Shown: positions 6,256-20,687, counted from the stretch's first letter. The stretch is DNA of 20,729 nucleotides from a virus (IMGVR_UViG_3300025118_000202:1-20729), one strand, 5' to 3'. Program-made: numbers and translations. The notes: generated by a model from the letters alone, not told the origin.

Positions 6256-6608
6256 ATTATAATATAATCGTTATCGTAACTATCTTCTGTAGTGTATTCT
6301 CCACTATTCATAGTGTAATAATCGTTATTTTCTTGATCTACAGTTTGGTCTGTACAAAATATCTTATCTTTATAAATTATATCAGTACCCTCTTTCACTG
6401 TCATATCATAAAATCTACCTTCAACTAAAACAGGACTTAAAGCCTGTGCAATTACTAAATAATTTTTGTCAGTTGAAGCACTTATACTACTATAGGTTGT
6501 GGAGGTATTAGTTGAATCGTCTCTTAAAATCATATTAATAGTAGAGGCATAACTTCTTGGAATTATCTTCATTGTTTGACTAGAAGCTGATGTCGTTAAA
6601 TGTATCAT
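6252..6608 (-). CDS. Conserved-looking 118-residue structural-region protein
   Basis: The product is beta-rich with a strongly patterned C-terminal half: LVEGRFYDMTV, then KDKIFCTDQTVDQENNDYYTMN and SYDNDYIII. I recall similar proteins from flavobacterial phages, but no assigned function. It is the first gene after two tandem terminators and carries a CGTTATA-N5-ATG signal, so it probably opens the portal/connector transcription unit. Its last four bases overlap the portal start (ATGA). A head-decoration, connector or assembly role is possible; the sequence does not decide. Confidence 0.65.
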   Translation of the reverse strand: MIHLTTSASSQTMKIIPRSYASTINMILRDDSTNTSTTYSSISASTDKNYLVIAQALSPVLVEGRFYDMTVKEGTDIIYKDKIFCTDQTVDQENNDYYTMNSGEYTTEDSYDNDYIII

Positions 6609-6613
6609 ACTAA

Positions 6614-6620
6614 TATAACG
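6614..6620 (-). promoter_or_regulatory. CGTTATA start-proximal motif before the 118-residue gene
   Basis: On the minus strand CGTTATA is followed by TTAGT and then ATG, a spacing of exactly five bases. The same 7-mer at the same spacing precedes four other genes here. It lies just downstream of two terminators, so a promoter function would make sense, with a transcript that has almost no leader. A translation-initiation signal is the alternative. Confidence 0.6.
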
Positions 6621-6643
6621 AATAAACTTTATATTTTGCGTAT

Positions 6644-6668
6644 AAAAAAAGGAGGTATTAAAACCTCC
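6644..6668 (-). terminator. Rho-independent terminator, second of a tandem pair
   Basis: Read on the minus strand, GGAGGT, a six-base loop and ACCTCC form a perfect six-base-pair stem, followed at once by seven T residues. It lies between the tail-tube-like gene and the 118-residue gene, 36 bases before the latter's ATG. Confidence 0.8.
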
Positions 6669-6706
6669 CTCTAAACTAAATTATGAAAACACTATAACAA
6701 AGATAT

Positions 6707-6746
6707 AAAAAAAAGGGATACGATTTACATATCCCTCTCTTTTTTT
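6707..6746 (-). terminator. Rho-independent terminator, first of a tandem pair (possibly bidirectional)
   Basis: GGGATA and TATCCC (6715-6735) form a six-base-pair stem with a nine-base loop. On the minus strand it is followed by eight T residues. A run of seven T on the other side could make it work in both directions. It starts about 20 bases after the stop of the 178-residue gene. Confidence 0.8.
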
Positions 6747-6766
6747 GAAAACAAGTTAGAACCCTG

Positions 6767-7303
6767 TTAGTTTGGTGTTATTTGAGAACCTTGACTAGCT
6801 CCTGTTACAACTGTTGAAATTGTAAAGTCTGGTGCAGCCATTTCTTGTGCTGTAAACGTCAATGAGTAGCCATTTAGATCGCCCATTGCTGCTCCATTAG
6901 AAAAAGTACCTGTCGTTAACTCACATCCATTAACCTTACCCATTAAATAGTAAGAGCTACCTGCTAAACCACTATAAGCCTCAACCCAAATATGAGGTCT
7001 AGCAATAGCAAGAAGCCTTATTTCTTCTTGAGTATGTCTGTCTTGGAATGTAAAGTTTAAAGTTAATGTACTTTCATAAAATGTAGTACCATTTTCTCGA
7101 GAACTTGTAACACTGGTTTCAAAAGTGGAGTTACCTTTTAAATCAAACTGATATAAAGTAGGAGAACCAGCTATTGCTGAAATTTCGTAATCAGTAATAG
7201 TAATAGCCCCTAATCCACCAAAATCTGCGAAATAAACTGACTTCAAGCCACCTACTCCTGATTTACAGGGTACTTTTCTACCTTTTGTTAATACACACGC
7301 CAT
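6767..7303 (-). CDS. Putative major tail (tube) protein
   Basis: The product has 178 residues, beta-rich and ordered: KSVYFADFGGLGAITITDYE near the N-terminus, YQFDLKGNSTFE and SRENGTTFYESTL in the middle, then RPHIWVEAYSG, YYLMGKVNGCE and MGDLNGYSLTFTAQE towards the C-terminus. These segments match what I remember of major tail or tube-type structural proteins in Bacteroidota phages. It follows the major capsid gene and is bracketed by terminators on both sides, as expected for a highly expressed virion protein. A head-decoration protein is the main alternative, because the rest of the tail module is far upstream. Confidence 0.55.
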   Translation of the reverse strand: MACVLTKGRKVPCKSGVGGLKSVYFADFGGLGAITITDYEISAIAGSPTLYQFDLKGNSTFETSVTSSRENGTTFYESTLTLNFTFQDRHTQEEIRLLAIARPHIWVEAYSGLAGSSYYLMGKVNGCELTTGTFSNGAAMGDLNGYSLTFTAQEMAAPDFTISTVVTGASQGSQITPN

Positions 7304-7319
7304 GTTATTAAAGTATTAT

Positions 7320-7347
7320 AAAAAAGGGTAGGGTTAACTACCCCTTT
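7320..7347 (-). terminator. Rho-independent terminator after the major capsid gene
   Basis: On the minus strand GGGTAG, a six-base loop and CTACCC (7326-7343) form the stem, followed by six T residues. It lies 12 bases after the capsid stop and 17 bases before the next ATG, and no clear promoter is visible in that gap. Partial read-through would set the ratio of capsid to tail-tube-like protein. Confidence 0.75.
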
Positions 7348-7358
7348 CTAGTTAATTA

Positions 7359-8288
7359 TTATGAATAGTAAACAATATCTGCTCCTACTCCGATTTGACA
7401 TCCTGCTGTCCATCTAAGAATTACTCTTACATTTCTGCTTCCGTCTTTGTCTGCCATGTCAATAAATCTTACATCGTTTCTGTCATCTGCTAAACCAGTT
7501 CCCCAGAATAAGTTAGATTTTGGAGTTAATACCATTTTATTATTACCCATGCCATTAGCTACGAAAACTGGAATACCCTCAAAAGTTAATTGTTGGTTAT
7601 TACTGAACCAAGAAGTTCCTTTATTATCAATACCAGCAGCACCTAAACCACTTGTTCCAAATCCACCTAAAGCTCTAATATAAGCTCTAGCTACATTTGT
7701 TGATACATAAAGAGTAAGATCAGCAGCACCTAAACAAGCTGTGCTAGCAGCATCTACTACGCTTCCCATTTGTGCAATTACATTTGCTGAAGTTACCGCT
7801 GAAGCAGCTACATCTACTACATTAGAATCAGCATAACATAAAGCTTGAAAACCATCATAGTCATCAGCTCCTGAAGCACCTTGCCAAATAGAAGTCTCTG
7901 TTGCATCTGCAACCTGAGCAGCTACTCTTGAAATTACATACTCCTCGAAAGAAGCTGGAATTTCAGCATAAGCAGAATATCCCATCTCTGTCGCTTGCCA
8001 TTCTTGTTCCATGTCAGACTTACACAATTGAACATTGCTTTGAAGTTCCATCGTGGTAAGTACTTTCTCTGTTAATGTTAAAGTAGTTGTGGAAGTATCA
8101 AAATTACATGATGCTCCTTTTACTACATTTGCCCAAGCACCTACCTGCAGAACAGACTTGTACCTGACGTTAGGCATAATTGTTATTGCGCCTGCATCTA
8201 AAGTTGCTGCACTTAACAATGCTGCCCCTAAAATTTTACCTGAAAACTCACCAGCGTAAGTTCCTGAGGTATAAGTTGGATTTGCCAT
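7359..8288 (-). CDS. Major capsid protein
   Basis: The product has 309 residues and a composition rich in Ala, Gly, Ser and Thr, typical of capsid proteins. A protein of this size directly after a protease and an acidic scaffold is the standard place for an HK97-fold capsid protein. Segments such as SDMEQEWQATEMGYSAYAEI, GASGADDYDGFQAL, LYVSTNVARAYIRALGG and VRVILRWTAGCQIGVGADIV fit capsid proteins of flavobacterial phages as I remember them. The ATG at 8286-8288 is 12 bases after the scaffold stop in an A-rich leader, with no Shine-Dalgarno. A terminator follows. Confidence 0.85.
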   Translation of the reverse strand: MANPTYTSGTYAGEFSGKILGAALLSAATLDAGAITIMPNVRYKSVLQVGAWANVVKGASCNFDTSTTTLTLTEKVLTTMELQSNVQLCKSDMEQEWQATEMGYSAYAEIPASFEEYVISRVAAQVADATETSIWQGASGADDYDGFQALCYADSNVVDVAASAVTSANVIAQMGSVVDAASTACLGAADLTLYVSTNVARAYIRALGGFGTSGLGAAGIDNKGTSWFSNNQQLTFEGIPVFVANGMGNNKMVLTPKSNLFWGTGLADDRNDVRFIDMADKDGSRNVRVILRWTAGCQIGVGADIVYYS

Positions 8289-8300
8289 TTTTAATTGTTT

Positions 8301-8930
8301 TTAATTATTATACATTTTACTTAACACTCTATCTAAAGAATTTTGCTGTCTATTTTGAGCATACTTTAGATGTGTTTTCTTTTTTACTTCTGGGTTATGA
8401 GTAATTGCTTCAGCAGCAGGTGTTTCTGATAATTGCTGTTTAACTTCTTGCTCAAGTTTTTCAAAATCTTCTTTTTCCCCTATCTTGCTTTTAATATCAG
8501 CGATAGCATCTTCAAGATTTTTAATTCTTTTTTCCATACCTGCCCAGTCATCAACTGCTGCTTCGTCATCTTCTGCCATCTCATCTTCTTTTTCAGGCAC
8601 GTCATCAGAAACTTCTTTATAATCTGCAATAAGTCCTTCTTCTTCTACGACTAGAAGTTTACCATCCTCCATTACATATTCGCCAACAGGCATTGCTACT
8701 TTCTCATCGTCTGTAATGATAAAGATTTCGTCTCCTGCTTTAAATGATTCTGATTCTACTACTGTTCCGTTTTCAAGTTTAGCCTGAGCTAACTCGACTT
8801 TTACTTCTTCTTGGATTTCTTCTTGAGCTTCTAATTGAGTTTCTTCTACTGTTTCATCAATAGATTCTTCAACTTTAGCATCTTCTCCCAAGAAGGTTTT
8901 AATTTTGTTTAAAATTTCGGTTGATTTCAT
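8301..8930 (-). CDS. Acidic scaffold (prohead core) protein
   Basis: The product has 209 residues and is very acidic in the first two thirds (many E/D-rich runs). A compact beta-like segment (AKLENGTVVESESFKAGDEI to VVEEEGLIADYKE, about 50-107) is followed by a predicted coiled coil (MEKRIKNLEDAIADIKSKIG, about 131-170) and a basic tail (VKKKTHLKYAQNRQ) that could bind capsid protein. This layout and its position between the protease and the major capsid protein fit a scaffold that shapes the prohead and is then removed. A CGTTATA-N5-ATG signal precedes it. Confidence 0.75.
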   Translation of the reverse strand: MKSTEILNKIKTFLGEDAKVEESIDETVEETQLEAQEEIQEEVKVELAQAKLENGTVVESESFKAGDEIFIITDDEKVAMPVGEYVMEDGKLLVVEEEGLIADYKEVSDDVPEKEDEMAEDDEAAVDDWAGMEKRIKNLEDAIADIKSKIGEKEDFEKLEQEVKQQLSETPAAEAITHNPEVKKKTHLKYAQNRQQNSLDRVLSKMYNN

Positions 8931-8935
8931 ATTAC

Positions 8936-8942
8936 TATAACG
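8936..8942 (-). promoter_or_regulatory. CGTTATA start-proximal motif before the scaffold gene
   Basis: CGTTATA, then GTAAT, then ATG on the minus strand: the same five-base spacing as at the other four sites. The preceding 43-residue gene ends 23 bases further upstream, so this gene cannot rely on stop-start coupling. Confidence 0.6.
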
Positions 8943-8965
8943 TTATTAAATTTATATTTGCATTT

Positions 8966-9097
8966 TCAGATTTTACCAATGCCTTGATTTACTAGATTTC
9001 CTTTGCAACATTTAGTTGAATAGGTGTTGTCCTCACAAAGACAGGCTCTGCGACCACCTTTTGGACTTGTTCTTGATGGTGTTTTAAATTGTTTCAT
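8966..9097 (-). CDS. Cysteine-containing 43-residue protein
   Basis: The ATG (9095-9097) lies inside the end of the protease gene, a 14-base overlap in another frame; TGA is at 8966-8968. After a basic N-terminus (MKQFKTPSRTSPKGGRR) comes ACLCEDNTYSTKCC, with cysteines at 19, 21, 30 and 31, and a QGIGKI end. The C-x-C ... CC spacing could bind a metal or form disulfides. I have a general memory of ACLC...YSxKCC...QGIG tails in flavobacterial phage proteins, but no known function. Its place between protease and scaffold suggests a minor head-assembly role. Confidence 0.75.
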   Translation of the reverse strand: MKQFKTPSRTSPKGGRRACLCEDNTYSTKCCKGNLVNQGIGKI

Positions 9098-9680
9098 TAA
9101 ATAGATTTTTTATTTTACTTAATACAGCATCTGCTTTTTGTTCCATATCATTAATAGGTTCTTTAGGTCTTTCTGCTTTATCAGCAAAGTAGCCTTCAAT
9201 ACTAAACCCTTTTACCTTACCTGTCTTAACAAATTCCTCCCATACTTCTTCAGAATTTACTTTGACAGCACCCATCCAAGTTCCTATAGGTACATTTAAA
9301 CCATATTTTCTGGATTTGTCATGTACCTCATCCTCCACCAACCAGCTTTCAACAAGTGTTAATCCGTTTAAAGAGTGTTGATGTTCTAAAGTAGCGTTGT
9401 TTTGATTGCCATTCATTAAATAAAGCTGAGATGCTTTCTCTATTGTCTTTTTTGAGAAGTAAATATAATACTCATCTTCGCTTGTTTTTCTGTAGATAGG
9501 TTTATTTGGTACTAGTAAAGCTCCTAGCAGTATTCGTTTCTCGCTAGATACTTCAGCAAGTTTTACTTCTTGTGATTTTAAAGTAATCCATTCTTCTTCA
9601 ATAGCAGGAGATTCTACTAACGAAATTGCTTCTATACCTGAAAAAACTCCATCTCCTAAAATAAGTTCTATTATCTTCAT
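9084..9680 (-). CDS. Head maturation protease, XkdF-like (peptidase S78-type)
   Basis: The product has 198 residues. The N-terminal ISLVESPAIEEEW and the core (ILLGALLVPNKPIYR at 50-64, TLEHQHSL at 97-104, VESWLVED at 110-117, GTWMGAVKV at 133-141, EEFVKTGKVKGFSIEGYF at 148-165) match the XkdF-like phage serine protease pattern. Ser160 in GFSIEG and His100 or His102 are the likely catalytic residues. Such enzymes cleave the scaffold and capsid during head maturation, which fits the scaffold and capsid genes next door. The last 14 bases overlap the 43-residue gene. CGTTATA lies five bases before the ATG. Confidence 0.85.
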   Translation of the reverse strand: MKIIELILGDGVFSGIEAISLVESPAIEEEWITLKSQEVKLAEVSSEKRILLGALLVPNKPIYRKTSEDEYYIYFSKKTIEKASQLYLMNGNQNNATLEHQHSLNGLTLVESWLVEDEVHDKSRKYGLNVPIGTWMGAVKVNSEEVWEEFVKTGKVKGFSIEGYFADKAERPKEPINDMEQKADAVLSKIKNLFNETI

Positions 9681-9685
9681 ATTAT

Positions 9686-9692
9686 TATAACG
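9686..9692 (-). promoter_or_regulatory. CGTTATA start-proximal motif before the protease gene
   Basis: CGTTATA, then ATAAT, then ATG on the minus strand. It marks the start of the head module, in the 31-base gap after the tape measure stop. Confidence 0.6.
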
Positions 9693-9711
9693 TTTAATTT
9701 ATTTTTTTTGT

Positions 9712-11535
9712 TTATCCTAGACTTGCTCCTGTAATTATATTACGATCTAACTCTTGAGCAGTAGTAACATCATTAGAAACTACAAATGCTTGTATAGGAG
9801 GTTGACCGCCTAATACTGAAGCTAATTGATTTGTGCCACTTGCTCCCACTGTGTTAAATTGTGGTATAATTGATTCTATTTCATTTTGTGTGGAAATAGA
9901 CGGACTTGGCACGCTAACATCAATCCCCCTTCCACCACCTAACGTGGATGCAACTTGTTTGGTTTTACCTTTTGCTGCCTTTACTGCTGACATAACACTT
10001 AGTGCAGTTGCAAGGGCTGTTGCTATAAATGGTAAATTAAATGGAGGTGGTGCAACGTTTGCTGCTTTTGCAATCGATGAGGTAGTTTGTACTGATGCCT
10101 CAGCAGCAGTAAGACTTACATTACCCATTGCTGCGGTTGCTTTAACGACATCAGCTTTAAAATTCATAATAGCTTCCTTTGCAATTAAAATTTGTTTAGC
10201 TAAAAGCATTGTCCTTCCTAATCGACTTTCTGCACCTGCTAAATGAACTGCATTGTTAAATGTTTTTTCTTTAATAGCTCTTTTAGATGCCTCAATTCTT
10301 TCTTCTTCTGCTAATCCTTTTTCTCTTTCAGCAGTTTTTTTATCTGCTTTGGCTTTGGCTTTAGCATCATCTTCAGCATCATACTCAGCCTGTTTGGATA
10401 CTAAAGCCTGTCTTCTCGCCGCATCTAATTCATCAGTTACTAGGTTTTGTTCTTCTGCTTGAAGTAAAAGATTTTGGAAATGTTCTTCAATCTTAATTAA
10501 TTCTAAAGCTCTTTTTTCTTCTTTTGAAACAGCCTCAGCATCTCTTATTTGTTTTTTAAGATCAGACATTTTTTTAATTCCTTCTTTTTCTAATCTTTCT
10601 GCTTCTTTTTCATCTGCAACTTTTTTTGCTACTATTGCTTTTCTCTCAGATTCTGCCTCTCTTAAATTTGTAGTGATTTCTGCGGTAAGTGTTTTTTGTT
10701 TCTTTAATCTACTTGCTTCTAATTCTATTAGCCTTGCTTGTAATTGTGCTTGTTCGTCTAAATCATCTTTTGTGCTACCAGACATCAAATTTTCTTGTTT
10801 TTTCGTTTCAAATCTAATTCTAGCTGCTTCTATTTCTTTAATAGTAATTGCTTCTTCTATTGCACCTGCTTCTTTTAATAAACGTATTCTTTCATCTACT
10901 GATACATTTTCCTTGTCTGCTGCTTTTTCTCTAAGTTCATTAAACTTTCTTGTTGCTTCTGCTCTGTCTATTAATAGTTGTCTCTCTAATTTATCAGCTT
11001 TAGCTCTTTGGTCAGAAAGTTCATTTGATTTTTTTATTTCTTCTCGTGTTTCTTTCCCAAAATTCTTCATTTTTTCCCTTAACTCATCATAGGATTTTTT
11101 TGCTTCACCAAACCTCCCTGTAAATACATTAAACATCACCTCTCCTAACCCTGCAACAATATCAGTTACATTGCCAACAACGACCCCAATGCCACTCATT
11201 AATTTAGTAAATCTGTTTTGCCCTTTTTCAGAATTAGTAAACATAGTCGCTAAAGCACCAACAGCAACAACTAACAAACCAATCCCTGTTGCCATAACAG
11301 CAACCTTTAAAGATTTAAAACTTTTAATAACTGTTCCTAGTGTTCCCTTAAGACCTTTAAATTTAGTTATAGCTCCCCCTGTAGTGCTATCTAATATTCC
11401 TCCTAATTTTTCCTGTGAATCTGAAGTTTTATCTACTTGCTTTTCTAACTTAGAATACTCTGATTGCATTTCATCTAAGTTCTTTACAGCCTCTTTGTAT
11501 TTTAATTCAAAATCTATGTAGACTTTCTTTGCCAT
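9712..11535 (-). CDS. Tail tape measure protein
   Basis: The product has 607 residues. The N-terminal part is helical (YKEAVKNLDEMQSEYSKLEK), then come two hydrophobic segments (about 79-100, VAVMATGIGLLVVAVGALAT, and about 113-140), a long charged coiled coil rich in K, E, R and A (about 150-435), an Ala-rich region, a third hydrophobic stretch (LPFIATALATALSVMSAV) and a C-terminal VVSNDVTTAQELDRNI. This layout is that of a tape measure, which sets tail length and enters the host membrane at ejection. At about 1.5 angstrom per residue the tail would be roughly 90 nm. The start lies inside the end of the 49-residue gene (22-base overlap). Large antisense frames come from its A/E/K-rich code and are not genes. 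Confidence 0.88.
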   Translation of the reverse strand: MAKKVYIDFELKYKEAVKNLDEMQSEYSKLEKQVDKTSDSQEKLGGILDSTTGGAITKFKGLKGTLGTVIKSFKSLKVAVMATGIGLLVVAVGALATMFTNSEKGQNRFTKLMSGIGVVVGNVTDIVAGLGEVMFNVFTGRFGEAKKSYDELREKMKNFGKETREEIKKSNELSDQRAKADKLERQLLIDRAEATRKFNELREKAADKENVSVDERIRLLKEAGAIEEAITIKEIEAARIRFETKKQENLMSGSTKDDLDEQAQLQARLIELEASRLKKQKTLTAEITTNLREAESERKAIVAKKVADEKEAERLEKEGIKKMSDLKKQIRDAEAVSKEEKRALELIKIEEHFQNLLLQAEEQNLVTDELDAARRQALVSKQAEYDAEDDAKAKAKADKKTAEREKGLAEEERIEASKRAIKEKTFNNAVHLAGAESRLGRTMLLAKQILIAKEAIMNFKADVVKATAAMGNVSLTAAEASVQTTSSIAKAANVAPPPFNLPFIATALATALSVMSAVKAAKGKTKQVASTLGGGRGIDVSVPSPSISTQNEIESIIPQFNTVGASGTNQLASVLGGQPPIQAFVVSNDVTTAQELDRNIITGASLG

Positions 11536-11663
11536 ATCTCCTGTTTTAATTTTTTATATCCTTCTTTTAATGTTTCGGCTAATTTATATTTGCCTTTAGC
11601 TATTTCAATAGCTTCTGTTTCTCCTTCTACAAAAGGCAATAATTCTAATATATTTTTTATCAT
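11514..11663 (-). CDS. Small 49-residue helical protein before the tape measure
   Basis: The ATG (11661-11663) shares ATGA with the stop of the 695-residue gene; TAG is at 11514-11516, 22 bases inside the tape measure gene. The product (MIKNILELLPFVEGETEAIE, then IAKGKYKLAETLKEGYKKL) is amphipathic and helical with no cysteines. The coupling on both sides is strong support that it is translated. Its place directly before the tape measure suggests a tail-assembly role, but I recognise no family. Confidence 0.75.
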   Translation of the reverse strand: MIKNILELLPFVEGETEAIEIAKGKYKLAETLKEGYKKLKQEIWQRKST

Positions 11664-13747
11664 GTTAATACGCTATTTGTGTAAGTTGTTGTTTTTACTA
11701 TAAGCTCAAGATCTGATTTACCTGTTGTTAAATTAATCTTTATACTATTTATATAATATAGTTCTCCACTTATTAATATAACGTCATTAACAGAATAATT
11801 TAAAATAAATTCTAATGGGAGATGTGCCGATACTTTTATTATTCTCCCGTTTTGTTGAAAGGTTTGTATTATATACTCTTTATAAAATCTTTCAAAAATA
11901 CTATTAGTGTTTATATCTCCATTAAACTCATCATATTCAGCACCAAAATTTAAAGTATGATTTTCATCAGTAGCTACATTTGACGGTGCGTTATATTCAT
12001 TTATAGTTGAGCTTGTTATAGGATAGCTTGTTGAATCTACTACTCTATTAAAAAAGATATATGGCTTTCCGAGTGTTGGCTTACCTTCTGCATCTACCCA
12101 CCATCCCTGTATGTTGTTTGTTTGATCTCCTGAACTATCTTGTAAATTAATTAATACTGTTCTTTCTAATGGAACATCTAAATTAAATGCTTGTCCATCA
12201 TATTTTTCTGGAGCTGAATAGCCTAAATTGCCAAAAACTAAACTAAATTGATTTAAAAATCTTAAACCTGTTTGAGTTACAGGTTCAGCATATTTAAAAT
12301 TAACCTGATTAAAAGGAACAGGTCTATCTATTGTTGCTTTTGTTATATCAATATATTTAGTAATATCTCTGGCAACACCTTTTGTCATGAAGTCATCAAA
12401 GGTTTCTACATATATAGTGCTGCTTGTTAATTTCGTATAAGCAACTAAATTAAACATCTTAAATAAAGCAGTTAAGAAGTCAAGTACTTTTATTTTAGGC
12501 AAGTAATCCTGTATATATATATTATAGCCTAAAGAAAATCCTGTATTTCCGTAATCATGTACTGTTGAAGTTGCTCCTACTGTTTTGCTGATTCTCATGG
12601 CTACTGTTCCACAGGAATTTCTTGCAGGAAATGTTTGACCTGTTTGACAATTTATTCTAATCTCTATATCATACGTTCTTGACGACAATGTGCCACTTGT
12701 TAAAGATGTCATGGTAATTGTATTGAGAGCAGATGAATTAAAAGCAATATTGTTTTTATAATATAATAATTCGTTTGTTGTTATATCCTTAACAATTACT
12801 TCCCCTGTATTAGTGGTTATGCTAGGAGCTAGTGTTGCTCTTATAGAAAATGTTTCTCCCTCGTTTATAGTTAATTTATTTGAAGAAAGTACATCTCCAC
12901 TTCCACACAAATAACTATAATCTGCAAAAGTTAATTTTTTATTTCTTGTAGTTACATCAACACCATACTCGACAGGTGTTATGCCTTTAGCAGACACAGG
13001 GGTTTTTTCTCTATGCAACCATAAGTAAAGCTCATCAAACATAGCACTACCAAAAAATGTTTTTATAGAACCTTCATCTGCCATATTAAAAGTAATATCA
13101 TATTGAGTTTGTATTGCTTCGATAACCCTTTTAAGTTTTATAGCAGGTTTTAATTCCTTTCTTAAATTAGCCCAAGTTGCAGTATCTAATCTATATGAGC
13201 CTGAATCATATTCATAATAATTATTTAGTAATATAAGAGGAACAACTACGTTTCTATTTGCAAGTGTTGTAGCATTTGAGCCTGTTGTTTGTAATCCTGT
13301 TTTAAAAGCATTTAGGAAATCAGCCCCATTATAATCAATATCATACGTTTTAAGTGGATTTAATGAATTTAAATCTTCTTCCCCGAATATATCTTTAATA
13401 TTACTAGGCTTTCCAAAAAATACTACTTTATAAGTATGAGGTTTATTATCCTTCATGCTTACTCCATCTAATCGTATTTGTCCTATTTTAAATGGTACGA
13501 AACTTATTTCGATTCTTGCATCAACTCTAAATCTTGCATCAAATCCATCTTGAATATTAAAATTATAATAATGCTTAAATAGTTTGTTGTTTGTTGCAGA
13601 AGCAGGTAAATTAAAACTTTGAGAAAAAGGAGTAAATATCTTACTTATATCAGAGATGTTCTGAATAGAATCAGTAATACTAATAGTTTCATCCTGAAAT
13701 AAATCAACTCTAGTATCAGATATGTATAATTGTACCTCACGCTTCAT
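11660..13747 (-). CDS. Large tail protein, probable baseplate/tail-tip component
   Basis: The product has 695 residues and is beta-rich. The N-terminal segment (VQLYISDTRVDLFQDETISI, then ISKIFTPFSQSFNLPAS and NNKLFKHYYNF at about 35-63) is a pattern I recall from large tail proteins of flavobacterial phages. The middle contains long beta-sandwich-like stretches, and the C-terminus (HLPLEFILNYSVNDVILISGELYYINSIKI) resembles the end of tail hub or baseplate-type proteins. Its ATG overlaps the previous stop by one base (TAATG). A tail-tip hub or Dit/Tal-like role is inferred from size, neighbours and composition. Confidence 0.6.
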   Translation of the reverse strand: MKREVQLYISDTRVDLFQDETISITDSIQNISDISKIFTPFSQSFNLPASATNNKLFKHYYNFNIQDGFDARFRVDARIEISFVPFKIGQIRLDGVSMKDNKPHTYKVVFFGKPSNIKDIFGEEDLNSLNPLKTYDIDYNGADFLNAFKTGLQTTGSNATTLANRNVVVPLILLNNYYEYDSGSYRLDTATWANLRKELKPAIKLKRVIEAIQTQYDITFNMADEGSIKTFFGSAMFDELYLWLHREKTPVSAKGITPVEYGVDVTTRNKKLTFADYSYLCGSGDVLSSNKLTINEGETFSIRATLAPSITTNTGEVIVKDITTNELLYYKNNIAFNSSALNTITMTSLTSGTLSSRTYDIEIRINCQTGQTFPARNSCGTVAMRISKTVGATSTVHDYGNTGFSLGYNIYIQDYLPKIKVLDFLTALFKMFNLVAYTKLTSSTIYVETFDDFMTKGVARDITKYIDITKATIDRPVPFNQVNFKYAEPVTQTGLRFLNQFSLVFGNLGYSAPEKYDGQAFNLDVPLERTVLINLQDSSGDQTNNIQGWWVDAEGKPTLGKPYIFFNRVVDSTSYPITSSTINEYNAPSNVATDENHTLNFGAEYDEFNGDINTNSIFERFYKEYIIQTFQQNGRIIKVSAHLPLEFILNYSVNDVILISGELYYINSIKINLTTGKSDLELIVKTTTYTNSVLT

Positions 13748-14700
13748 TATACTATATTGTTAATGTAATCGTTTGCATCCTCTACTTCTAATGTATATTG
13801 TATTAGTTTATCGTTTAATAACGATTTCCAAATTAATGAGTTACTTACTACGTTAACAGGTCTGTAATATCCTTCAGTTAAACTTGTTCCTCCACTTGTA
13901 TAAATCCACACATATTCACTTAATAGAATATCTTGCATAACTGCAACATAAGCCTCCGCAATATAATCTGTGTTTAAAGTATATCTATAACTTCCATTTT
14001 TATTAAAGATTTTTTTTTGATGGTTTTTAACATCATAGTTAGAAGAAGAATAGTCGAATATATTTTTTTTAAAGTTTTCTGATTTAGTAGCTATTTTTTT
14101 AGAAGATTTTAAAAAGAAGTATTGATCTTGAGGTACGCCATTTTTATTTATGAATCTCATTAATATAGGAGTGTATTTAGCACTACATATCCTTTCTATA
14201 GTCCAAGTGTAATTACCACTTGCTGCAGCTACACTTGAGGCAGAGGTACTAATGGTTGCTTTAGTTGCTGTTCCTGAGTTCATATCATATGCAAAAGAGG
14301 CTGTACTATCTGGAAGGTAAATTATTTGACTATTACCTGTATTGGTTAATTCATAATCATTTGGGTCAATGTCGTTTCCTGCTACGCCCTGCCAAAAATC
14401 TGAATATCCTTCAAATCCTGTATGAGTTACTGTTGCTGTTGCTAATTGACTTCCTCCTCCATCTACTGCATCATAAGCATACCAAGTAGCTGAAATAGCA
14501 ACAGTGTCTAAAGTGTTATAATCTGGCTCGTAATAATCTCTTGCTAAAGAACTAATTTCAAATACTGTTCTATTAGAGGTTGCGTTTTTGATTATTGTAT
14601 ATCTTAATGTACTATCTAAAGTAAGCTCTAACTTGGCTGATAGGTGCGAACCTGTAGTTATAGTTAGAAAAAACGGACTTCTTAAAAATATATTTGCCAT
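13747..14700 (-). CDS. 317-residue tail structural protein
   Basis: The product starts MANIFLRSPFFLTITTGSHL and is beta-rich throughout, with a Thr/Ser/Ala-rich middle (YDMNSGTATKATISTSASS) and a C-terminal segment (YVWIYTSGGTSLTEGYYRPV, then YTLEVEDANDYINNIV). It starts one base after the HK97 gp10-like gene and is coupled through TAATG to the 695-residue protein, so the two probably form one tail-tip assembly. A distal-tail-like role is possible; I do not recognise a named domain. Confidence 0.6.
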   Translation of the reverse strand: MANIFLRSPFFLTITTGSHLSAKLELTLDSTLRYTIIKNATSNRTVFEISSLARDYYEPDYNTLDTVAISATWYAYDAVDGGGSQLATATVTHTGFEGYSDFWQGVAGNDIDPNDYELTNTGNSQIIYLPDSTASFAYDMNSGTATKATISTSASSVAAASGNYTWTIERICSAKYTPILMRFINKNGVPQDQYFFLKSSKKIATKSENFKKNIFDYSSSNYDVKNHQKKIFNKNGSYRYTLNTDYIAEAYVAVMQDILLSEYVWIYTSGGTSLTEGYYRPVNVVSNSLIWKSLLNDKLIQYTLEVEDANDYINNIV

Positions 14701-14701
14701 C

Positions 14702-15217
14702 TTATTTATTCATGTTTTCTGGAAAGAACCTTTTATCTTGCTCTATGTCAAAAATAAATGCGTCTCTCAATTCGTTTGGTATGTATTTAAATGCTCTTTG
14801 AAAAGGTTTAGTAAAGAATAAGCTTGGCTTAATACCATGTTCAAATATGCTTCTTGCTACTAGATATTGTAAGGATTTTCTTTTTATAAATTTTCCTGAT
14901 TTATCTCTAGTTCCCTCTAAGCCTTTTCTAACTACCCATTGACTAAATGCTTTTGAGGGAGGCATTTTGGTCTTATAACTATAAGGAGTATTATATTTAG
15001 TTTTAATTCCGCTTACGCCTAAATCTTGGAAAGCTCCATAATCCTCCATACTAAACAATAAGTCTATGCTATCTTTATATACATTCATTCTATAATCTAA
15101 ACTATTGTAAAGATTTTTAGTTACATTCTTTTTTCCTTTTGTTAAATTTGTTCTCGCTTGTTGGATTACATATTTAGCAAATTTGTTTAAAGCCTCTTTT
15201 GTTTTTTTTAACTGCAT
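14702..15217 (-). CDS. HK97 gp10-like neck/tail completion protein
   Basis: The product has 171 residues with a helical basic N-terminus (LKKTKEALNKFAKYVIQQAR), NVTKNLYNSLDYRMNVY, then EDYGAFQDLGVSGIKTKYNT and MPPSKAFSQWVVRKG. The order of an N-terminal helix, a beta segment and a [Y/F]G...[Q/D]xG turn is the HK97 gp10 pattern. Those proteins join the neck to the tail. It overlaps the upstream tail-terminator-like gene by ten bases. Confidence 0.65.
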   Translation of the reverse strand: MQLKKTKEALNKFAKYVIQQARTNLTKGKKNVTKNLYNSLDYRMNVYKDSIDLLFSMEDYGAFQDLGVSGIKTKYNTPYSYKTKMPPSKAFSQWVVRKGLEGTRDKSGKFIKRKSLQYLVARSIFEHGIKPSLFFTKPFQRAFKYIPNELRDAFIFDIEQDKRFFPENMNK

Positions 15218-15681
15218 AGGTCTATATCGTTTTGTACAAATACATCAAAGGTGCAAGCCACCCCTGCTAATTCATTTTCAAATCTATCATAAAAGAACTC
15301 ACATGATCCCTCGCTTGCTAATTGATATTTAGTTGTGTATAATGTTCCTTGTCTTAATACTCCTAATAATTTGTTTACTACTGCAAGCTGAGTATTGAGT
15401 ATATCTTGCTCGTTGTTATTACCTCTGAATATATCGGTTGTCGTATCTTTGCTTTGATCTACAATATCCATTGCAAGAACACTAATATTAAATTGTAGTG
15501 TTTGTTCTTGTATTGTAACACTATTAATTATAATATGAGCTAAAGGAAATATTGTTTGTTTAGACAAATCTATTTCTGTGATGTCTCCTGTTGTTACAGT
15601 ATTAACATTCTCATCAGCTAGAAGTTGTGTTTTTAATGTATCTGTTATTTGGTAAAACCCTCTTACTCCTTGATTGCTCAT
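15208..15681 (-). CDS. Tail terminator-like protein
   Basis: The product has 157 residues, starting with a helix (YQITDTLKTQLLADENVNTVTT) followed by alternating strands (IFPLAHIIINSVTIQEQTLQ, then FNISVLAMDIVDQSKD) and a helix (ILNTQLAVVNKLLGVLRQ), ending with strands and DVFVQNDIDLCS. This alpha/beta layout, the length and the position beside a gp10-like gene fit a tail terminator. Its ATG overlaps the stop of the frameshifted chaperone frame by four bases (ATGA), which suggests that ribosomes arrive through that frame. Confidence 0.55.
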   Translation of the reverse strand: MSNQGVRGFYQITDTLKTQLLADENVNTVTTGDITEIDLSKQTIFPLAHIIINSVTIQEQTLQFNISVLAMDIVDQSKDTTTDIFRGNNNEQDILNTQLAVVNKLLGVLRQGTLYTTKYQLASEGSCEFFYDRFENELAGVACTFDVFVQNDIDLCS

Positions 15682-15839
15682 TTATTCATTTTATTTTTTA
15701 TATTTTTTGATTCTAGTTCTGCTTTCTCTTTCATAAAACTTAATGCATATAAACAGGTATGCAAGTTTAGTTTAGTGATATTTTCAATCCGTCTAATATC
15801 TCCCTGAGCGAGTCCGAAAATTGATTGATACCATCCCCA
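15678..15839 (-). CDS. -1 frameshift extension of the tail assembly chaperone (53 codons)
   Basis: This frame has no start of its own near its beginning. It becomes open exactly at the slippery A AAA AAT site and runs to TGA at 15678-15680. It encodes WGWYQSIFGLAQGDIRRIEN, then ITKLNLHTCLYALSFMKEKA and a Lys/Asn-rich tail ending NKMNK. The amphipathic pattern and WGWY motif look far more like a folded domain than the in-frame end of the 216-residue protein (NGDGINQF... ISLN). The frame ends in an ATGA overlap with the next gene. Fused after residue 193 it would give a 246-residue protein, like lambda gpGT. An independent 18-residue ORF from the internal ATG is a weaker reading. Confidence 0.75.
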   Translation of the reverse strand, partial: WGWYQSIFGLAQGDIRRIENITKLNLHTCLYALSFMKEKAELESKNIKNKMNK

Positions 15840-16417
15840 TTTTTTTCCAAAGTTAGCTGTTGCACTAAAGCCTGTGTCTCCTCGTGTTGTAAATAATTCA
15901 GCATAACTTTCGACAAGTCCATCCCTAAATTGTAAAAAAAAATAATAGAACTAAGTACTGCATCCATTGGCATATCTTTCATTTTTTCTGTGTCCTCCCC
16001 TTCGTATTCTTCTATTAAATATTTGTCATTATATTTTTGTGTAATAGGTCTATAAAGAACTGCCATTGCTTTATGTATGTTTTCAAAGTCTCCAACGTAG
16101 GTATCTAAATCTACATACTCGCCAAAAGACATATCCTCCAGCTTAGGAATAAATCCATATTCTTTACCCTTCATAGTAAACTCTCTCACTAGCGGAGGTT
16201 TCTGATTAAACATATCTGTTAGGATTCTAGTAATATCTTTAATGCTAGATGCTTTCATTTTCATAATATGATCACCTCTTATTCCACAAAATATCTCTAT
16301 CATTTTAACAGCTAAAAAGGTTTCGTCTTCGTTATTATCTTGTATCTTTAAAAACTTCTGATATTGTTCTAATGTTATTTCGCTTAAAGTGTCAGGCACT
16401 AATATTTCTACTTGCAT
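15767..16417 (-). CDS. Tail assembly chaperone (unshifted form)
   Basis: The product has 216 residues and starts MQVEILVPDTLSEITLEQYQ. It is mainly helical and acidic in the middle (KYNDKYLIEEYEGEDTEKMK), with FFYNLGMDLSKVMLNYLQ towards the end. Such proteins hold the tape measure and recruit tube protein during tail assembly. I base the identity mainly on the probable -1 frameshift at residues 191-193 (GAA AAA AAT) and on its place at the start of the tail module. Without the shift, 23 more residues follow to TAA (15767-15769). A CGTTATA-N5-ATG signal precedes it. The chaperone usually sits right beside the tape measure; here five genes lie between. Confidence 0.7.
   Translation of the reverse strand: MQVEILVPDTLSEITLEQYQKFLKIQDNNEDETFLAVKMIEIFCGIRGDHIMKMKASSIKDITRILTDMFNQKPPLVREFTMKGKEYGFIPKLEDMSFGEYVDLDTYVGDFENIHKAMAVLYRPITQKYNDKYLIEEYEGEDTEKMKDMPMDAVLSSIIFFYNLGMDLSKVMLNYLQHEETQALVQQLTLEKNGDGINQFSDSLREILDGLKISLN
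15839..15845 (-). other. Slippery heptamer A AAA AAT, probable -1 programmed frameshift site
   Basis: In the chaperone frame the codons are GAA AAA AAT, so the X XXY YYZ heptamer is in phase. The A run is seven bases. A -1 slip replaces the 23-residue in-frame end with the 53-residue frame ending in TGA at 15678. I see no strong downstream hairpin or upstream Shine-Dalgarno by eye, so the stimulator is unknown. Confidence 0.7.
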
Positions 16418-16422
16418 ATATA

Positions 16423-16429
16423 TATAACG
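16423..16429 (-). promoter_or_regulatory. CGTTATA start-proximal motif before the chaperone gene
   Basis: CGTTATA, then TATAT, then ATG on the minus strand. It lies in the 35-base gap after the large terminase stop and opens the tail module. Confidence 0.6.
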
Positions 16430-16452
16430 AAAAAATAAAAAGTTTTAGGAAC

Positions 16453-17616
16453 TTATTGAATTGCGTACTTGCCGAAATTTGGTCTGCTTAATATGCTATA
16501 AGTTGCATATCTAGTTGGGTCAATAATATGGTTGTGTTTATCTTCAGGTACATTAGTTAGTCTGCCAGACTTATCCTCCCTCCACTTATAGTTTCTAAAC
16601 TCTTGTATTGCATTATTAGAGCTAGACAATATATGAATCTTATACCTTTTAAGTAAATCAATACCTGCATTAATAGAATCTCTGCCTTTCATGCTTGGAA
16701 ATATGTTATGCCCCATTGTTCTTAATTCTCTGATTAATCTCGGCTCTGAACTATCAGCATAAATAGGATTGTTTGACAATAGTTCTTTTTTTAAAAATTC
16801 ATTTATATCATTTGTGGTCATTTGAGTTCTATATAAATGCTCCTTAATATACAAGTTGTGTTCTAAGGTATATACAGAAACTAATGTTGAGGGGTCATTC
16901 GAGTAGCCAAAATCCATTCCATAAGCTATTAGCTTTGCATTATAGGGTATTATATCTACTTCAATATATTTAAAAATAGTGCTTCTACTAGCTGCTCTTT
17001 CTCCTAATCCATATATCTGCCAGTATTGTTCATCTGTGTCTTTTAGTCTTTCAATCTCTTGTTTTATAGCATCCTCAACAAAAGGGTTGTCTAGGTAAGT
17101 AGTCTTATAAAAATCACAATCAGCTCTAGGTAATACTTTGTCATAAATCCAATGATATTCATCCGATGGATTAAAGTCAATTACAATACGCTCCTGTGTT
17201 CTAAATATAAGTTGTTGCCAATCTTCATAATACAACTCATTAGCTTCATTAATAAAAAGCAAATCTCTTTTACGCCCTCTAATTTTTTGTGACTGGTCAA
17301 GAGCAATAAACTCAATAAGGTTTCCGAATAAATTATATTCTGAGTTAGATTTGTTATGAAATAACTCACTATACATTTTATTCTTGTTTAAGATTTCTAA
17401 AAAATCCCTTAAGACCGTAGCCCTTAAACTAGGATAAGCCCTCCTACAAATAGTAATGATTTTGTTTTTATTATGAGTACAGTACTCGAAGATTATCCAA
17501 AGCAGTATATTATATGTTTTACCAGACCTAGTCCCTCCTTGTTCTACAATTATCTTTTTATTGCTGTTTACAAGGTGTTTATAAACAATGTTAGTCTTTA
17601 TCTTCTGTTTTGTCAA
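16453..17616 (-). CDS. terL: Terminase large subunit
   Basis: The product has 387 residues. The N-terminal ATPase carries Walker A GGTRSGKT (27-34), Walker B LLFINE (119-124, with Glu124 catalytic) and a DFNPS coupling motif (147-151). The C-terminal nuclease has an RNase H-like site: MDFGYSNDPS with Asp235, YADSSEPR with Asp288, and a third acidic residue expected near the DKHNHIIDPTRY segment. It cuts concatemeric DNA and pumps it into the prohead through the portal. The type resembles the PBSX-like family (Terminase_3). It overlaps the small subunit gene by 26 bases, and the length is complete. Confidence 0.93.
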   Translation of the reverse strand: MTKQKIKTNIVYKHLVNSNKKIIVEQGGTRSGKTYNILLWIIFEYCTHNKNKIITICRRAYPSLRATVLRDFLEILNKNKMYSELFHNKSNSEYNLFGNLIEFIALDQSQKIRGRKRDLLFINEANELYYEDWQQLIFRTQERIVIDFNPSDEYHWIYDKVLPRADCDFYKTTYLDNPFVEDAIKQEIERLKDTDEQYWQIYGLGERAASRSTIFKYIEVDIIPYNAKLIAYGMDFGYSNDPSTLVSVYTLEHNLYIKEHLYRTQMTTNDINEFLKKELLSNNPIYADSSEPRLIRELRTMGHNIFPSMKGRDSINAGIDLLKRYKIHILSSSNNAIQEFRNYKWREDKSGRLTNVPEDKHNHIIDPTRYATYSILSRPNFGKYAIQ

Positions 17617-17947
17617 TTATCTCAATTTGAAAGTTATTAGGCATTCCATCTACTCCTGTTATTTCTTGGCGTTCTATATAACCTCGCTTCTTGCCTTTTG
17701 TTTTTAAATAAAAGATTGTTGCTGGTGTTGAGTTATCTGATATTTGTTTATGAAGTTGTGATTCAGCAAAGTCCAATGCTACATTTTGTAAGTCATCTAC
17801 CTGCTGTTTAAATTCTTCATCTGTATTATACCATTCATAGTAAGTAGTTCTTCCTACTCCTACCTTCTTGCAAGCTGTTGTAACAACTCCTAAGGATTTT
17901 TCTAATGCATCTAATAATGCTTTTTTATGGTGTTCGGTTTTGTTCAT
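17591..17947 (-). CDS. terS: Terminase small subunit
   Basis: The product has 118 residues. A helix-turn-helix segment lies at about 8-42 (ALLDALEKSLGVVTTACKKV, then GVGRTTYYEWYNTDEEF), followed by a helical oligomerisation stretch (VALDFAESQLHKQISDNSTP, then ATIFYLKTKGKKRGYIE) typical of phage terminase small subunits. It binds the packaging site and recruits the large subunit. It starts by a TAATG overlap with the glycosyltransferase-like gene and overlaps the large subunit gene by 26 bases. Confidence 0.85.
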   Translation of the reverse strand: MNKTEHHKKALLDALEKSLGVVTTACKKVGVGRTTYYEWYNTDEEFKQQVDDLQNVALDFAESQLHKQISDNSTPATIFYLKTKGKKRGYIERQEITGVDGMPNNFQIEIIDKTEDKD

Positions 17948-18663
17948 TATAAATTTAATTGTATTGTAAATACATTAGCTTTTCTTTTAACTCTTGAAAT
18001 CATTGAGGGGTAAAGTTTTATTAAATCTTTTATTGCTTTCTTTTCTATATCTATTGTTCTATAATCTTTACATCCTCCCTCTTTAGTCCAATGATCATTT
18101 TCCCAATGCAAATATCTTATTCCTAATATTCCCCCTTTATCTTTTATATGTCTTAAACATATTTCGTAATCTTCTTTGACTACAAAATTTTCATCAAAAT
18201 AATATTCTCCATCATTTATAATTCCCATTAAAGAAGCTGTTACATAAGTTCTAGTTAGTATTGGTTTATAGGGATATGACCCTCTAGGGCTAGATTCTGT
18301 TCTTGTTCCCCAAATCTTATATCCCATCTGCTCACATAAATCAAAATATTTTAAAAATTCTTCATGCCAAAATCCCTGATCTTTTATTTCTATTTTTCTA
18401 GTATTTCTTTTATCTAAAAAATTATAGCCAATATTCTTAGCATCATCGTCTAACATGACCACCCATTTTTCTTTGCTGTTTTTTAATATCCAATTTCTAG
18501 TGGGTGTAATTCCTCTGACCTTTTTTGGTATGCAAACTATGTTTTTTATCAATCCTTTATATTGATGATATTCACTATCAGGAATAAAAAAAGTAGCATC
18601 AGGCAATATTTTATTTGTGCTGGTTAAACCTGCTCTTCCTTTACTTGGTACTGCTATTAACAT
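17947..18663 (-). CDS. GT-A glycosyltransferase, TET-associated (TAGT)-like
   Basis: The product has 238 residues. The N-terminal MLIAVPSKGRAGLTSTNKIL, then VRGITPTRNWIL (49-60), VVMLDDDAKN (68-77) and FVVKEDYEICLRH (160-172) are GT-A fold features. The DDD at 72-74 would hold the metal and sugar nucleotide, and Glu164/Asp165 in KEDYE fits the catalytic or acceptor-side acidic site. A WTKEGGCKDYR segment follows at 192-202. The pattern matches TET-associated glycosyltransferases, a phage family proposed to put sugars on modified bases. The substrate is not shown here. It overlaps the ParB-like gene by 23 bases and is coupled to terS by TAATG. A protein or surface glycan target is the alternative. 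Confidence 0.7.
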   Translation of the reverse strand: MLIAVPSKGRAGLTSTNKILPDATFFIPDSEYHQYKGLIKNIVCIPKKVRGITPTRNWILKNSKEKWVVMLDDDAKNIGYNFLDKRNTRKIEIKDQGFWHEEFLKYFDLCEQMGYKIWGTRTESSPRGSYPYKPILTRTYVTASLMGIINDGEYYFDENFVVKEDYEICLRHIKDKGGILGIRYLHWENDHWTKEGGCKDYRTIDIEKKAIKDLIKLYPSMISRVKRKANVFTIQLNL

Positions 18664-19264
18664 TTATTCTTTTTTTAAATTCATCCCAATATAAAACCCT
18701 CTCTAAACTAACTGCATCAAATGCACTTCCTTTTTTATAGCCTCCCCGCCTAACCATTTTCAGTTTTAATGTTTCTTTTATTTCTTCCCAATCAACGCTA
18801 TTTGGCTCTGCCATTATTAATATATATTCTTTAGGTGGTACTAATTGCACAGATTGTGGGATTTCCATTTCCTCATTCTCCTCCATTGAATCTATTTTAT
18901 CAAATATAGGCACATCTACTCCCCATTCTTCTAGTTGATCTATTTCCCAATTATTACCCAAACTATCCCAATCCCATTCTCCAAAGCTACTATTATCTTT
19001 AACAATAAATTCTTGTTCTTGTTCTGGTGTTAATTCCCAAGCCTTTGCAATCCATACTTCTTTTAATCCAGCATCAATACAAGCCTTTAATCTCATGTTC
19101 CCGCCCAAAACTATCATCTCTTTATTAACTACAATAGGTCGTAGTTTTAACATCTCAGGAAAATCTTTAATGCTTTGTACTAATTTTTTAAATTTATTCC
19201 CTTTTATTACTCTAGGATTATTAGGGTTTGATTTTATTTTTTCTACTTTAACTTGATGTAGCAT
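18641..19264 (-). CDS. ParB/Srx-like domain protein
   Basis: The product has 207 residues. The first ~75 form a ParB/sulfiredoxin-like domain: SNPNNPR (12-18), KLVQSIKDFP (27-36), LRPIVVN (41-47) and VLGGNMRLKACIDAGL (52-67), with GGNMR in the place of the ParB GxxR nucleotide-binding box. The middle is acidic (PEQEQEFIVKDNSSFGEWDW, then MEENEEMEI); the C-terminus is basic with KMVRRGGYKKGSAFDAVSLE. In phages such domains often stand beside DNA-modifying enzymes; here the neighbour is the overlapping glycosyltransferase gene. The full ParB centromere-binding region is absent, so chromosome partition is unlikely. CGTTATA lies five bases before the ATG. Confidence 0.75.
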   Translation of the reverse strand: MLHQVKVEKIKSNPNNPRVIKGNKFKKLVQSIKDFPEMLKLRPIVVNKEMIVLGGNMRLKACIDAGLKEVWIAKAWELTPEQEQEFIVKDNSSFGEWDWDSLGNNWEIDQLEEWGVDVPIFDKIDSMEENEEMEIPQSVQLVPPKEYILIMAEPNSVDWEEIKETLKLKMVRRGGYKKGSAFDAVSLERVLYWDEFKKRINVNSSTK

Positions 19265-19269
19265 AACTA

Positions 19270-19276
19270 TATAACG
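19270..19276 (-). promoter_or_regulatory. CGTTATA start-proximal motif before the ParB-like gene
   Basis: CGTTATA, then TAGTT, then ATG on the minus strand. It lies in the 30-base, otherwise A+T-only-looking gap after the diphosphohydrolase-like gene. Confidence 0.6.
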
Positions 19277-19294
19277 TAATTAATTATTAATTTT

Positions 19295-19588
19295 TTAAAC
19301 TTGTTCTTTTTCTATTTCTTTTTGAAGGTGTGCTAAAGCCCTCCAACAGATTTTGGCTGAATGTCTTATTCCATCTGTATCTATTTTACCTGCTTCTAGT
19401 AGGTGTCTAGTGAGTGCGTCTAGTTCGTCTGTACTTTTTGATCTATCCCAGTGTAGTGGTTTATCTGGGTGGTGTTGTTCGTTTCCCGCTCTTGAAACCT
19501 TAGAAACCTCCGCCAAAGCATCAGGAAAGTATTTAAGAACTCCGCTATATATTGGTAGTTGCTTTCTCTTTTCTTTGTCTTTCTCCAT
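19295..19588 (-). CDS. dATP/dGTP diphosphohydrolase-like small protein (DUF5664-like)
   Basis: The ATG at 19586-19588 gives 97 residues and a one-base TAATG overlap with the zinc-ribbon gene, so I prefer it to the GTG two codons upstream. The segments YFPDALAEVSKVSRAGNEQH, then KPLHWDRSKSTDELDALTRH, LLEAGKIDTDGIRHSAKICW and RALAHLQKEIE match the compact helical family I know as DUF5664 (dATP/dGTP diphosphohydrolase, N-terminal). Conserved E, H and D residues (NEQH, DELDAL, DTDG-RHS) could hold metal. If right, it hydrolyses purine dNTPs and changes the nucleotide pool for phage DNA; activity cannot be read from sequence. Confidence 0.65.
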   Translation of the reverse strand: MEKDKEKRKQLPIYSGVLKYFPDALAEVSKVSRAGNEQHHPDKPLHWDRSKSTDELDALTRHLLEAGKIDTDGIRHSAKICWRALAHLQKEIEKEQV

Positions 19589-19752: not shown

Positions 19753-20185
19753 CTAGTTTTTTAAAGGGTAATTTTTCAACTATGTCCAATAAACTATCCA
19801 CATATTTATCTTCTATATAATCTATTTTGTGAGCCAATATTCCTCTTTTAATCTTTCTGCTTGATGTTTCTTTTTCATTACAGTTTTCATAATTTGGACT
19901 TATATGTTTTTTAATAATATAATGTAATAAGGTTTCTAATTCTTCACTATACTGTCTATATAATTCAAATTTATTAATTGCATAAAGAGCCGTAGCATGA
20001 TTATAATTTTTACCTTTGGATTTAAAGTAATCTCTTATTTGATATAAAGTCATTCCAAAATAAACCCTTAGTATAAAACATAATAAAGACCTATGCTCTG
20101 CGTGTTGTTTTGTTCTTTTATTTTCAAATACATCTACGCCTGTTTGTTTTTTAATTAGTGTTGCTATGTTATTTGCTTGTTTCAT
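19727..20185 (-). CDS. DnaA domain IV-like DNA-binding protein
   Basis: The product has 152 residues. Residues about 30-76 (HRSLLCFILRVYFGMTLYQI, then RDYFKSKGKNYNHATALYAI, then NKFELY) resemble the DnaA C-terminal helix-turn-helix, including the HAT-x-x-YA signature at about 63-69. There is no ATPase domain. Such stand-alone DnaA-C-like proteins are common in Bacteroidota phages and may bind phage DNA at an origin or promoter. The second half is charged and helical. It overlaps the end of the endonuclease gene by 17 bases and carries the start of the zinc-ribbon gene at its end. Confidence 0.7.
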   Translation of the reverse strand: MKQANNIATLIKKQTGVDVFENKRTKQHAEHRSLLCFILRVYFGMTLYQIRDYFKSKGKNYNHATALYAINKFELYRQYSEELETLLHYIIKKHISPNYENCNEKETSSRKIKRGILAHKIDYIEDKYVDSLLDIVEKLPFKKLDEEKMQKM

Positions 20186-20687
20186 ATAATTTTTTTAATT
20201 CATTTTGATATGCTTGAGCTGCTTCTTGTTCTTTTTTATAATATCCTAAATATCTTAGTTTTTGTTTTATTCGTATATGAGCTTTCCATTTATTTGCTGT
20301 TTTATCCCAAGTAACACCAGTATATTTAGAAGTTCCTCTTTTGTCTTTTGAGCAATTTTGTCTTTGTGTTATTACTTGTAAATTATAAAGTCTGTCATTT
20401 AAAGGGTTATTGTCTATGTGATCTACTACTAACTTATGCCCACAAGGTTTATGATTTAAAAAAGCCATAGCCATTAAAACCGATGCTTTCATCTGTTTTT
20501 TTTTCTTTTTGTAGGATGTGTTTACTATATATCTATTTGTAGAATTTATGCATTTAGAAATCAATTTTATTTTATTAAATCTCGAAGTTCTAACGTTTCC
20601 TAAATTACTTACTTGATATACACCTTCAAAGGTTGGTATATCTTTCCAAGTTTCTATGCCTAATCTACTTAATAAAGAATGGATCAT
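20169..20687 (-). CDS. NUMOD4/HNH endonuclease with AP2 DNA-binding domain
   Basis: The product has 172 residues with three modules in order: a NUMOD4-like segment (TWKDIPTFEGVYQVSNLGNV at about 13-32), an HNH nuclease (HKLVVDHIDNNPLNDRLYNL at about 84-103) and an AP2-like DNA-binding domain (KYTGVTWDKTANKWKAHIRI then YLGYYKKEQEAAQAYQNEL). This is the usual build of phage homing endonucleases, which cut a target and spread by repair. It shares ATGA with the preceding gene and overlaps the next by 17 bases, so it is embedded in the operon rather than in an intron. A role in packaging is less likely, since it lies far from terS. Confidence 0.88.
   Translation of the reverse strand: MIHSLLSRLGIETWKDIPTFEGVYQVSNLGNVRTSRFNKIKLISKCINSTNRYIVNTSYKKKKKQMKASVLMAMAFLNHKPCGHKLVVDHIDNNPLNDRLYNLQVITQRQNCSKDKRGTSKYTGVTWDKTANKWKAHIRIKQKLRYLGYYKKEQEAAQAYQNELKKLYETSK

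Follow-up and report, generated by a model that had tools for sequence, protein, structure and literature searches.

Five copies of the heptamer CGTTATA, each exactly 5 nt before an ATG, are almost certainly promoters in a 20.7-kb viral record (hereafter the window, the whole stretch of 20,729 nt that was analysed), judging from their sequence context there and in related phages, and most of the mRNAs made from them are very probably leaderless. CGTTATA (−12 to −6) would be the −10 element of a phage late promoter, paired with an A-rich −33 element that carries AA at −29/−28, mostly reads (A/G)CAAA(A) and lies 13–15 bp further upstream; transcription is predicted to start about 6 nt past CGTTATA, at an A that follows a T. 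At most genes this A is the A of the ATG, which would yield a leaderless late mRNA, and in some relatives a leader of 1–10 nt would precede the start codon. Host RNA polymerase carrying a small, extracytoplasmic-function (ECF)-like phage sigma factor most likely reads these promoters, which would provide an early-to-late switch; this phage group encodes the factor upstream of the terminase. The account as a whole, in which host polymerase and phage sigma factor serve late promoters with leaderless or short-leader transcripts, is quite probable.

Every large gene of the window lies on the minus strand. The genes encode a ParB-like protein, a TAGT-type glycosyltransferase, a small-terminase-like protein, the large terminase, tail proteins, a Peptidase_S78_2 protease, a putative scaffold, a capsid-type protein, the portal and a long repeat protein, and the virus is one of marine flavobacteria. 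The glycosyltransferase gene (17947–18663, minus strand), which adjoins the ParB-like gene, matches TET-associated glycosyltransferases (PF20691, E = 1.4e-12) and also glucosyl-HMC glucosyltransferase (phrog_842); to judge from this gene, the phage DNA may be modified and glycosylated. The repeat protein (3–3644, minus strand; 1214 aa, open-ended) is highly repetitive, with repeats like AYNVAVGYxAGxxVSTGxxNTLIGGLAGDALTTG, and its C-terminal stretch DKRDKTNI..LKPVKFDWET resembles S74 fibre chaperones; it is a probable tail fibre. An HNH-endonuclease-like gene at the window edge (20169–20687, minus strand) was judged by eye from the sequence. The name "chaperone" given to the 216-aa gene in the initial annotation finds no family support, its sole match being to a family of unknown function.

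Table 1. Predicted promoter elements in the window, with the genes they precede.
Feature	Position	Strand	Basis
118-aa gene, first of a unit running into the portal (4444–6255)	6252–6608	−	Gene calls, family search
Predicted −10 element CGTTATA, 118-aa gene (ATG 6608–6606)	6614–6620	−	Motif counts, weighted profile
Predicted −33 element CGCAAAA, 118-aa gene, AA at −29/−28	6635–6641	−	Sequence; weighted profile
Intrinsic terminator, GGAGG-loop-CCTCC stem and T7, ending at about −36, directly 5′ of the 118-aa gene promoter	6644–6668	−	ΔG −11.4
209-aa putative scaffold gene, first of a unit with the 309-aa capsid-type gene (7359–8288)	8301–8930	−	Gene calls, family search
Predicted −10 element CGTTATA, putative scaffold gene	8936–8942	−	Motif counts
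Predicted −33 element (GCAAAT region), putative scaffold gene	8957–8963	−	Sequence
Head maturation protease gene, Peptidase_S78_2	9084–9680	−	PF14550, E = 4.9e-15
Predicted −10 element CGTTATA, protease gene	9686–9692	−	Motif counts; IMG/VR scan
Predicted −33 element (AACAAAA region), protease gene	9707–9713	−	Sequence
216-aa gene of unknown function	15767–16417	−	phrog_32199
Predicted −10 element CGTTATA, 216-aa gene after the terminase	16423–16429	−	Motif counts
Predicted −33 element (CTAAAAC region), 216-aa gene	16444–16450	−	Sequence
207-aa ParB-like gene, first of a unit with the glycosyltransferase, small-terminase-like and large terminase genes	18641–19264	−	Family searches
Predicted −10 element CGTTATA, ParB-like gene	19270–19276	−	Motif counts
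A-rich −33 position, weak match, ParB-like gene	19291–19297	−	Sequence; weighted profile

All five CGTTATA-N5-ATG sites of the initial annotation lie where it had placed them, on the minus strand (Table 1), against 0.03 expected, and the chance count in shuffled sequence that it had proposed reached five in none of 100 shuffles. CGTTATA irrespective of spacing occurs 11 times in the window (2 expected); the two further minus-strand copies already noted are correct, and there are four plus-strand copies (959, 3278, 4418, and 11989) that it did not mention. The motif had also been tied to genes uncoupled from their upstream neighbor: a gap of at least 30 nt does precede all five genes (30, 35, 31, 153, and 158 nt), but the gapped starts at 7303, 11535, and 15681 lack CGTTATA, and in some relatives the motif lies less than 20 nt past the end of the upstream gene or overlaps that end. 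A 607-aa gene without CGTTATA carries AGGAG just 5′ of its ATG (11535–11550, minus strand); such a Shine-Dalgarno-like sequence is unusual in this phylum. Terminator-like hairpins follow the capsid-type gene (7330–7344, minus strand) and a 178-aa gene (6707–6743, minus strand); the latter gene, which has no CGTTATA promoter, is probably transcribed by read-through. A scan for sigma-70 type promoters gave no excess over shuffles, as expected from the phylum of the host, and a search for the host-type pattern TTG-N17-21-TAnnTTTG showed no strand bias (37 sense vs. 55 antisense) and did not reveal a host-type early promoter pattern.

Related loci were gathered from IMG/VR by terminase and capsid searches (160 loci). 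In these loci and the window together, CGTTATA stands exactly 5 nt 5′ of an ATG at 186 coding-strand sites and at none on the opposite strand, the enrichment at N5 for which a scan of related phages had been suggested; no other distance from 0 to 30 nt accounts for more than 18 coding-strand sites. When k-mers were counted without bias at 1217 gene starts, CGTTATA at −12 was the top 7-mer, and the genes carrying it belong to unrelated families (216-aa, ParB-like, protease, 118-aa, scaffold, and 124-aa). When IMG/VR was scanned for ACAAAA-N14-CGTTATA-N5-ATG irrespective of homology, at least 130 sites were found. Of the matches listed, 122 stand before genes of these families and three before mid-sized genes of other kinds at phage-like loci; another belongs to a protease-like start that is cut off, and the remaining four repeat a single chance match within coding DNA. 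Among these matches, the bipartite pattern is restricted to the present group of phages.

The upstream DNA of these sites is partly conserved by descent, and the promoter profile was weighted by gene family and upstream relatedness, whereby 124 distinct sites amount to only 32 effective independent upstream regions. In the weighted profile, A occupies −29 and −28 in 100%, positions −30 to −26 are A-rich, and −18 to −13 are nearly all A/T; T occupies −1 in 100% (98 of 98 core sites) and is found there at 39% of other gapped gene starts. An ECF-type −35 element would contain AAC; the upstream element is (A)ACAAA(A) in many sites and GCAAAA or, as before the 216-aa gene, TATAAAA in others. ParB-like promoters match it only weakly. 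The Bacteroidetes −7 box TAnnTTTG is absent at all five window sites, where CGTTATA occupies its position.

Relatives without CGTTATA carry another heptamer (CGTTATC, TTATATA, AGTTATA, or CTATATA) exactly at −12 in several genes at once, with the −33 position unchanged and mostly T at −1, and no record combines CGTTATA with CGTTATC or TTATATA. The cultured Nonlabens phage P12024S, whose portal is 37.5% identical, has CGTTAAT: five CGTTAAT-N5-ATG sites (0.19 expected), four of them with ACAAA-N14 upstream (0.01 expected), the base 5′ of the ATG being T, C, or A. In this phage, the pattern with N15 spacing gave no matches, the true spacing being N14 to ACAAA. The −10 element contains CGT in most phages (CGTTATA, CGTTATC, and CGTTAAT), the exception being the TTATATA clade. 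Such joint change at many unlinked sites points to one trans-acting reader.

In relatives of sufficient length, a divergent protein of ~160 aa is encoded that carries the signature of sigma region 2; this signature was matched in 19 of 29 records (E 4e-6 to 1e-3), too weakly to pass the Pfam cut-off. Among the 24 members of this family, PF04542 is matched by 17, also below cut-off, with a region 2.1 of the EDLVQEMY type, and the PHROG "RNA polymerase sigma factor" by 13; a profile made from the ~160-aa proteins also finds further loci as well as gp33 of P12024S, annotated in its record as containing Sigma-70 region 2. An AlphaFold2 model (pLDDT 85) of the protein from L006, the nearest relative of the window phage (terminase 88% identical), is matched best in the PDB by ECF sigma factors; the model spans 158 aa, has eight helices and can be aligned from end to end with SigL, SigE, and sigma-E, although the superposition over that length is loose (TM ~0.4). 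Pfam searches of family members gave no match to sigma region 4; as modeled, the protein would be an ECF-like sigma factor composed of regions 2 and 4, with no room for regions 1.1 and 3. The Pfam match lies below the cut-off, and this assignment draws on the fold model and the PHROG match. Two loci that encode the main sigma factor also encode a second, more divergent sigma-like protein of ~200 aa (L045, 8250–8850; L017, 11571–12036). Searches of cultured phages by tblastn gave no match for the L006 protein and, for P12024S gp33, only itself and P12024L. The sigma gene of L006 lies ~5.5 kb upstream of the terminase, and from this position we infer that the window phage's own sigma gene, which is outside the 20,729 nt, lies just beyond the window edge, at a predicted distance of ~2.5 kb; the contigs overlapping the upstream edge comprised one close relative (L347), which starts inside the query gene.

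That the phage sigma factor reads these promoters is probable. The phages with TTATATA form a single clade, and their sigma factor differs at the end of the region 2.3/2.4 helix, where DLxRK is replaced by NTHKK. Alternatively, the same promoters could be read by a host sigma factor or another phage factor, the phage sigma having another job. Flavobacteria own ECF sigma factors, and in one host motif a CGT box stands at −10 (PMC9723704); the link between sigma factor and promoter consists of co-occurrence and a few clades only. This alternative is nevertheless unlikely given the limitation of the bipartite pattern to one phage group among the IMG/VR matches listed and the set-wise −10 switch, with its altered helix in the TTATATA phages; the scan of host genomes proposed in the initial annotation found no enrichment in 80 Flavobacteriaceae genomes (431 matches vs. 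666 for the reversed control).

Two readings of CGTTATA had been offered initially, a −10-like promoter for leaderless mRNA and a new translation-start signal. As a translation-initiation signal in the mRNA, CGTTATA-N5 would replace the Shine-Dalgarno sequence in a host that hardly uses one, in keeping with the exact ATG spacing at most genes and with the lack of Shine-Dalgarno sequences in Bacteroidetes (PMC6847099). The sites where the ATG has moved speak against this: at 34 promoter-like sites whose ATG is not at N5 (it is mostly at N6 to N15; L093, where an N5 ATG opens a short frame, was left out), the spacing from motif to ATG is lost while pyrimidine-A is kept at N5/N6 in 28, compared with 22 of 201 control sites (Fisher P = 4e-17), and the predicted initiator pair thus appears anchored to the motif rather than to the start codon. 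An intrinsic terminator precedes 17 of 17 sites in the 118-aa family, its T-run stopping between −36 and −32, and a hairpin with a T-run lies upstream at 31 of 41 sites in the 216-aa family (43 of 344 control starts); since the terminator ends just 5′ of the promoter, transcription must restart right before the gene, and the 5′ end must lie downstream. The conserved −33 element and the differing heptamers between phages likewise argue against a translation signal, and the lack of enrichment in Flavobacteriaceae genomes indicates that the motif is no general feature of host gene starts. A translation signal is, on this evidence, very unlikely; the promoter reading is favored by the initiator tied to the motif, the upstream terminators and the absence of host enrichment, and is also supported by the second element, the short-leader sites and the sigma factor in relatives. 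Chance or A+T-rich composition combined with shared ancestry, suggested by a very A+T-rich sequence and many homologous sites, is hardly credible, being ruled out by the counts (at least five unrelated gene families, absence on the opposite strand, persistence after relatedness weighting) and contradicted by recurrence in the distant P12024S.

The promoters described here would make late-gene control readable as a code in a common uncultivated phage group of marine Flavobacteriaceae, and would tie this code to a candidate phage sigma factor that does not reach family cut-offs. With their set-wise changes of the −10 element, these phages offer a natural series for the study of how sigma specificity changes, and a leaderless-mRNA phage programme in a phylum without Shine-Dalgarno sequences is directly testable in cultured P12024S. 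More tentatively, it is possible that the whole phage lineage makes nearly all of its late mRNAs leaderless by means of its own sigma factor, that late genes are translated by another route than leadered host mRNAs, and that sigma factor and −10 box evolve together, as sets, towards specificities that are incompatible with one another. A literature search returned no earlier report of the motif and the sigma factor; most subscription journals lay outside its reach, so a prior description is possible.

In phage T4, the small sigma factor gp55 redirects host polymerase to late genes via a phage-specific −10-like box; T4 late promoters have TATAAATA, lack a −35 element and depend on a co-activator and the sliding clamp. 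The phages described here resemble T4 in having a small phage sigma factor, here a candidate, and a phage-specific −10-like box for late genes, but differ in having a −33 element and predicted starts at the ATG. In Bacteroidetes promoters, the downstream box spans −12 to −5, transcription starts 4–5 nt beyond it, and there are AT motifs at −28 and −18 (PMC6847099). Compared with the primary promoter of this phylum (−33 element and −7 box TAnnTTTG), the phage elements occupy the same positions, provided that +1 is the A of the ATG; however, the phage box is CGTTATA, the upstream element is (A/G)CAAA(A), and phage transcripts would start at the ATG, whereas leaders exceed 10 nt in 87% of the transcripts predicted for F. 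johnsoniae. A CGT box at −10 is also part of SM6, an ECF-type motif of F. psychrophilum (PMC9723704), and the phage system resembles ECF sigma/promoter pairs in its small sigma factor with predicted regions 2 and 4 and in a −10 element that starts with CGT in most phages; unlike these pairs, it is phage-encoded and very divergent, its putative regulon consists of phage structural genes, and one clade has TTATATA without CGT. A −10-like signal ~10 nt upstream of the start codon is taken as a sign of leaderless mRNA (PMC3160421), and the phage genes resemble leaderless genes recognised in this way, since their signal, too, is as far from the start codon as a promoter would be; they differ in forming a dedicated phage regulon, in a host family in which ~5.5% of mRNAs are leaderless (PMC9723704). 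The promoter system differs from host ECF promoters, T4-type late sigma systems, and leaderless genes with a −10 signal alike.
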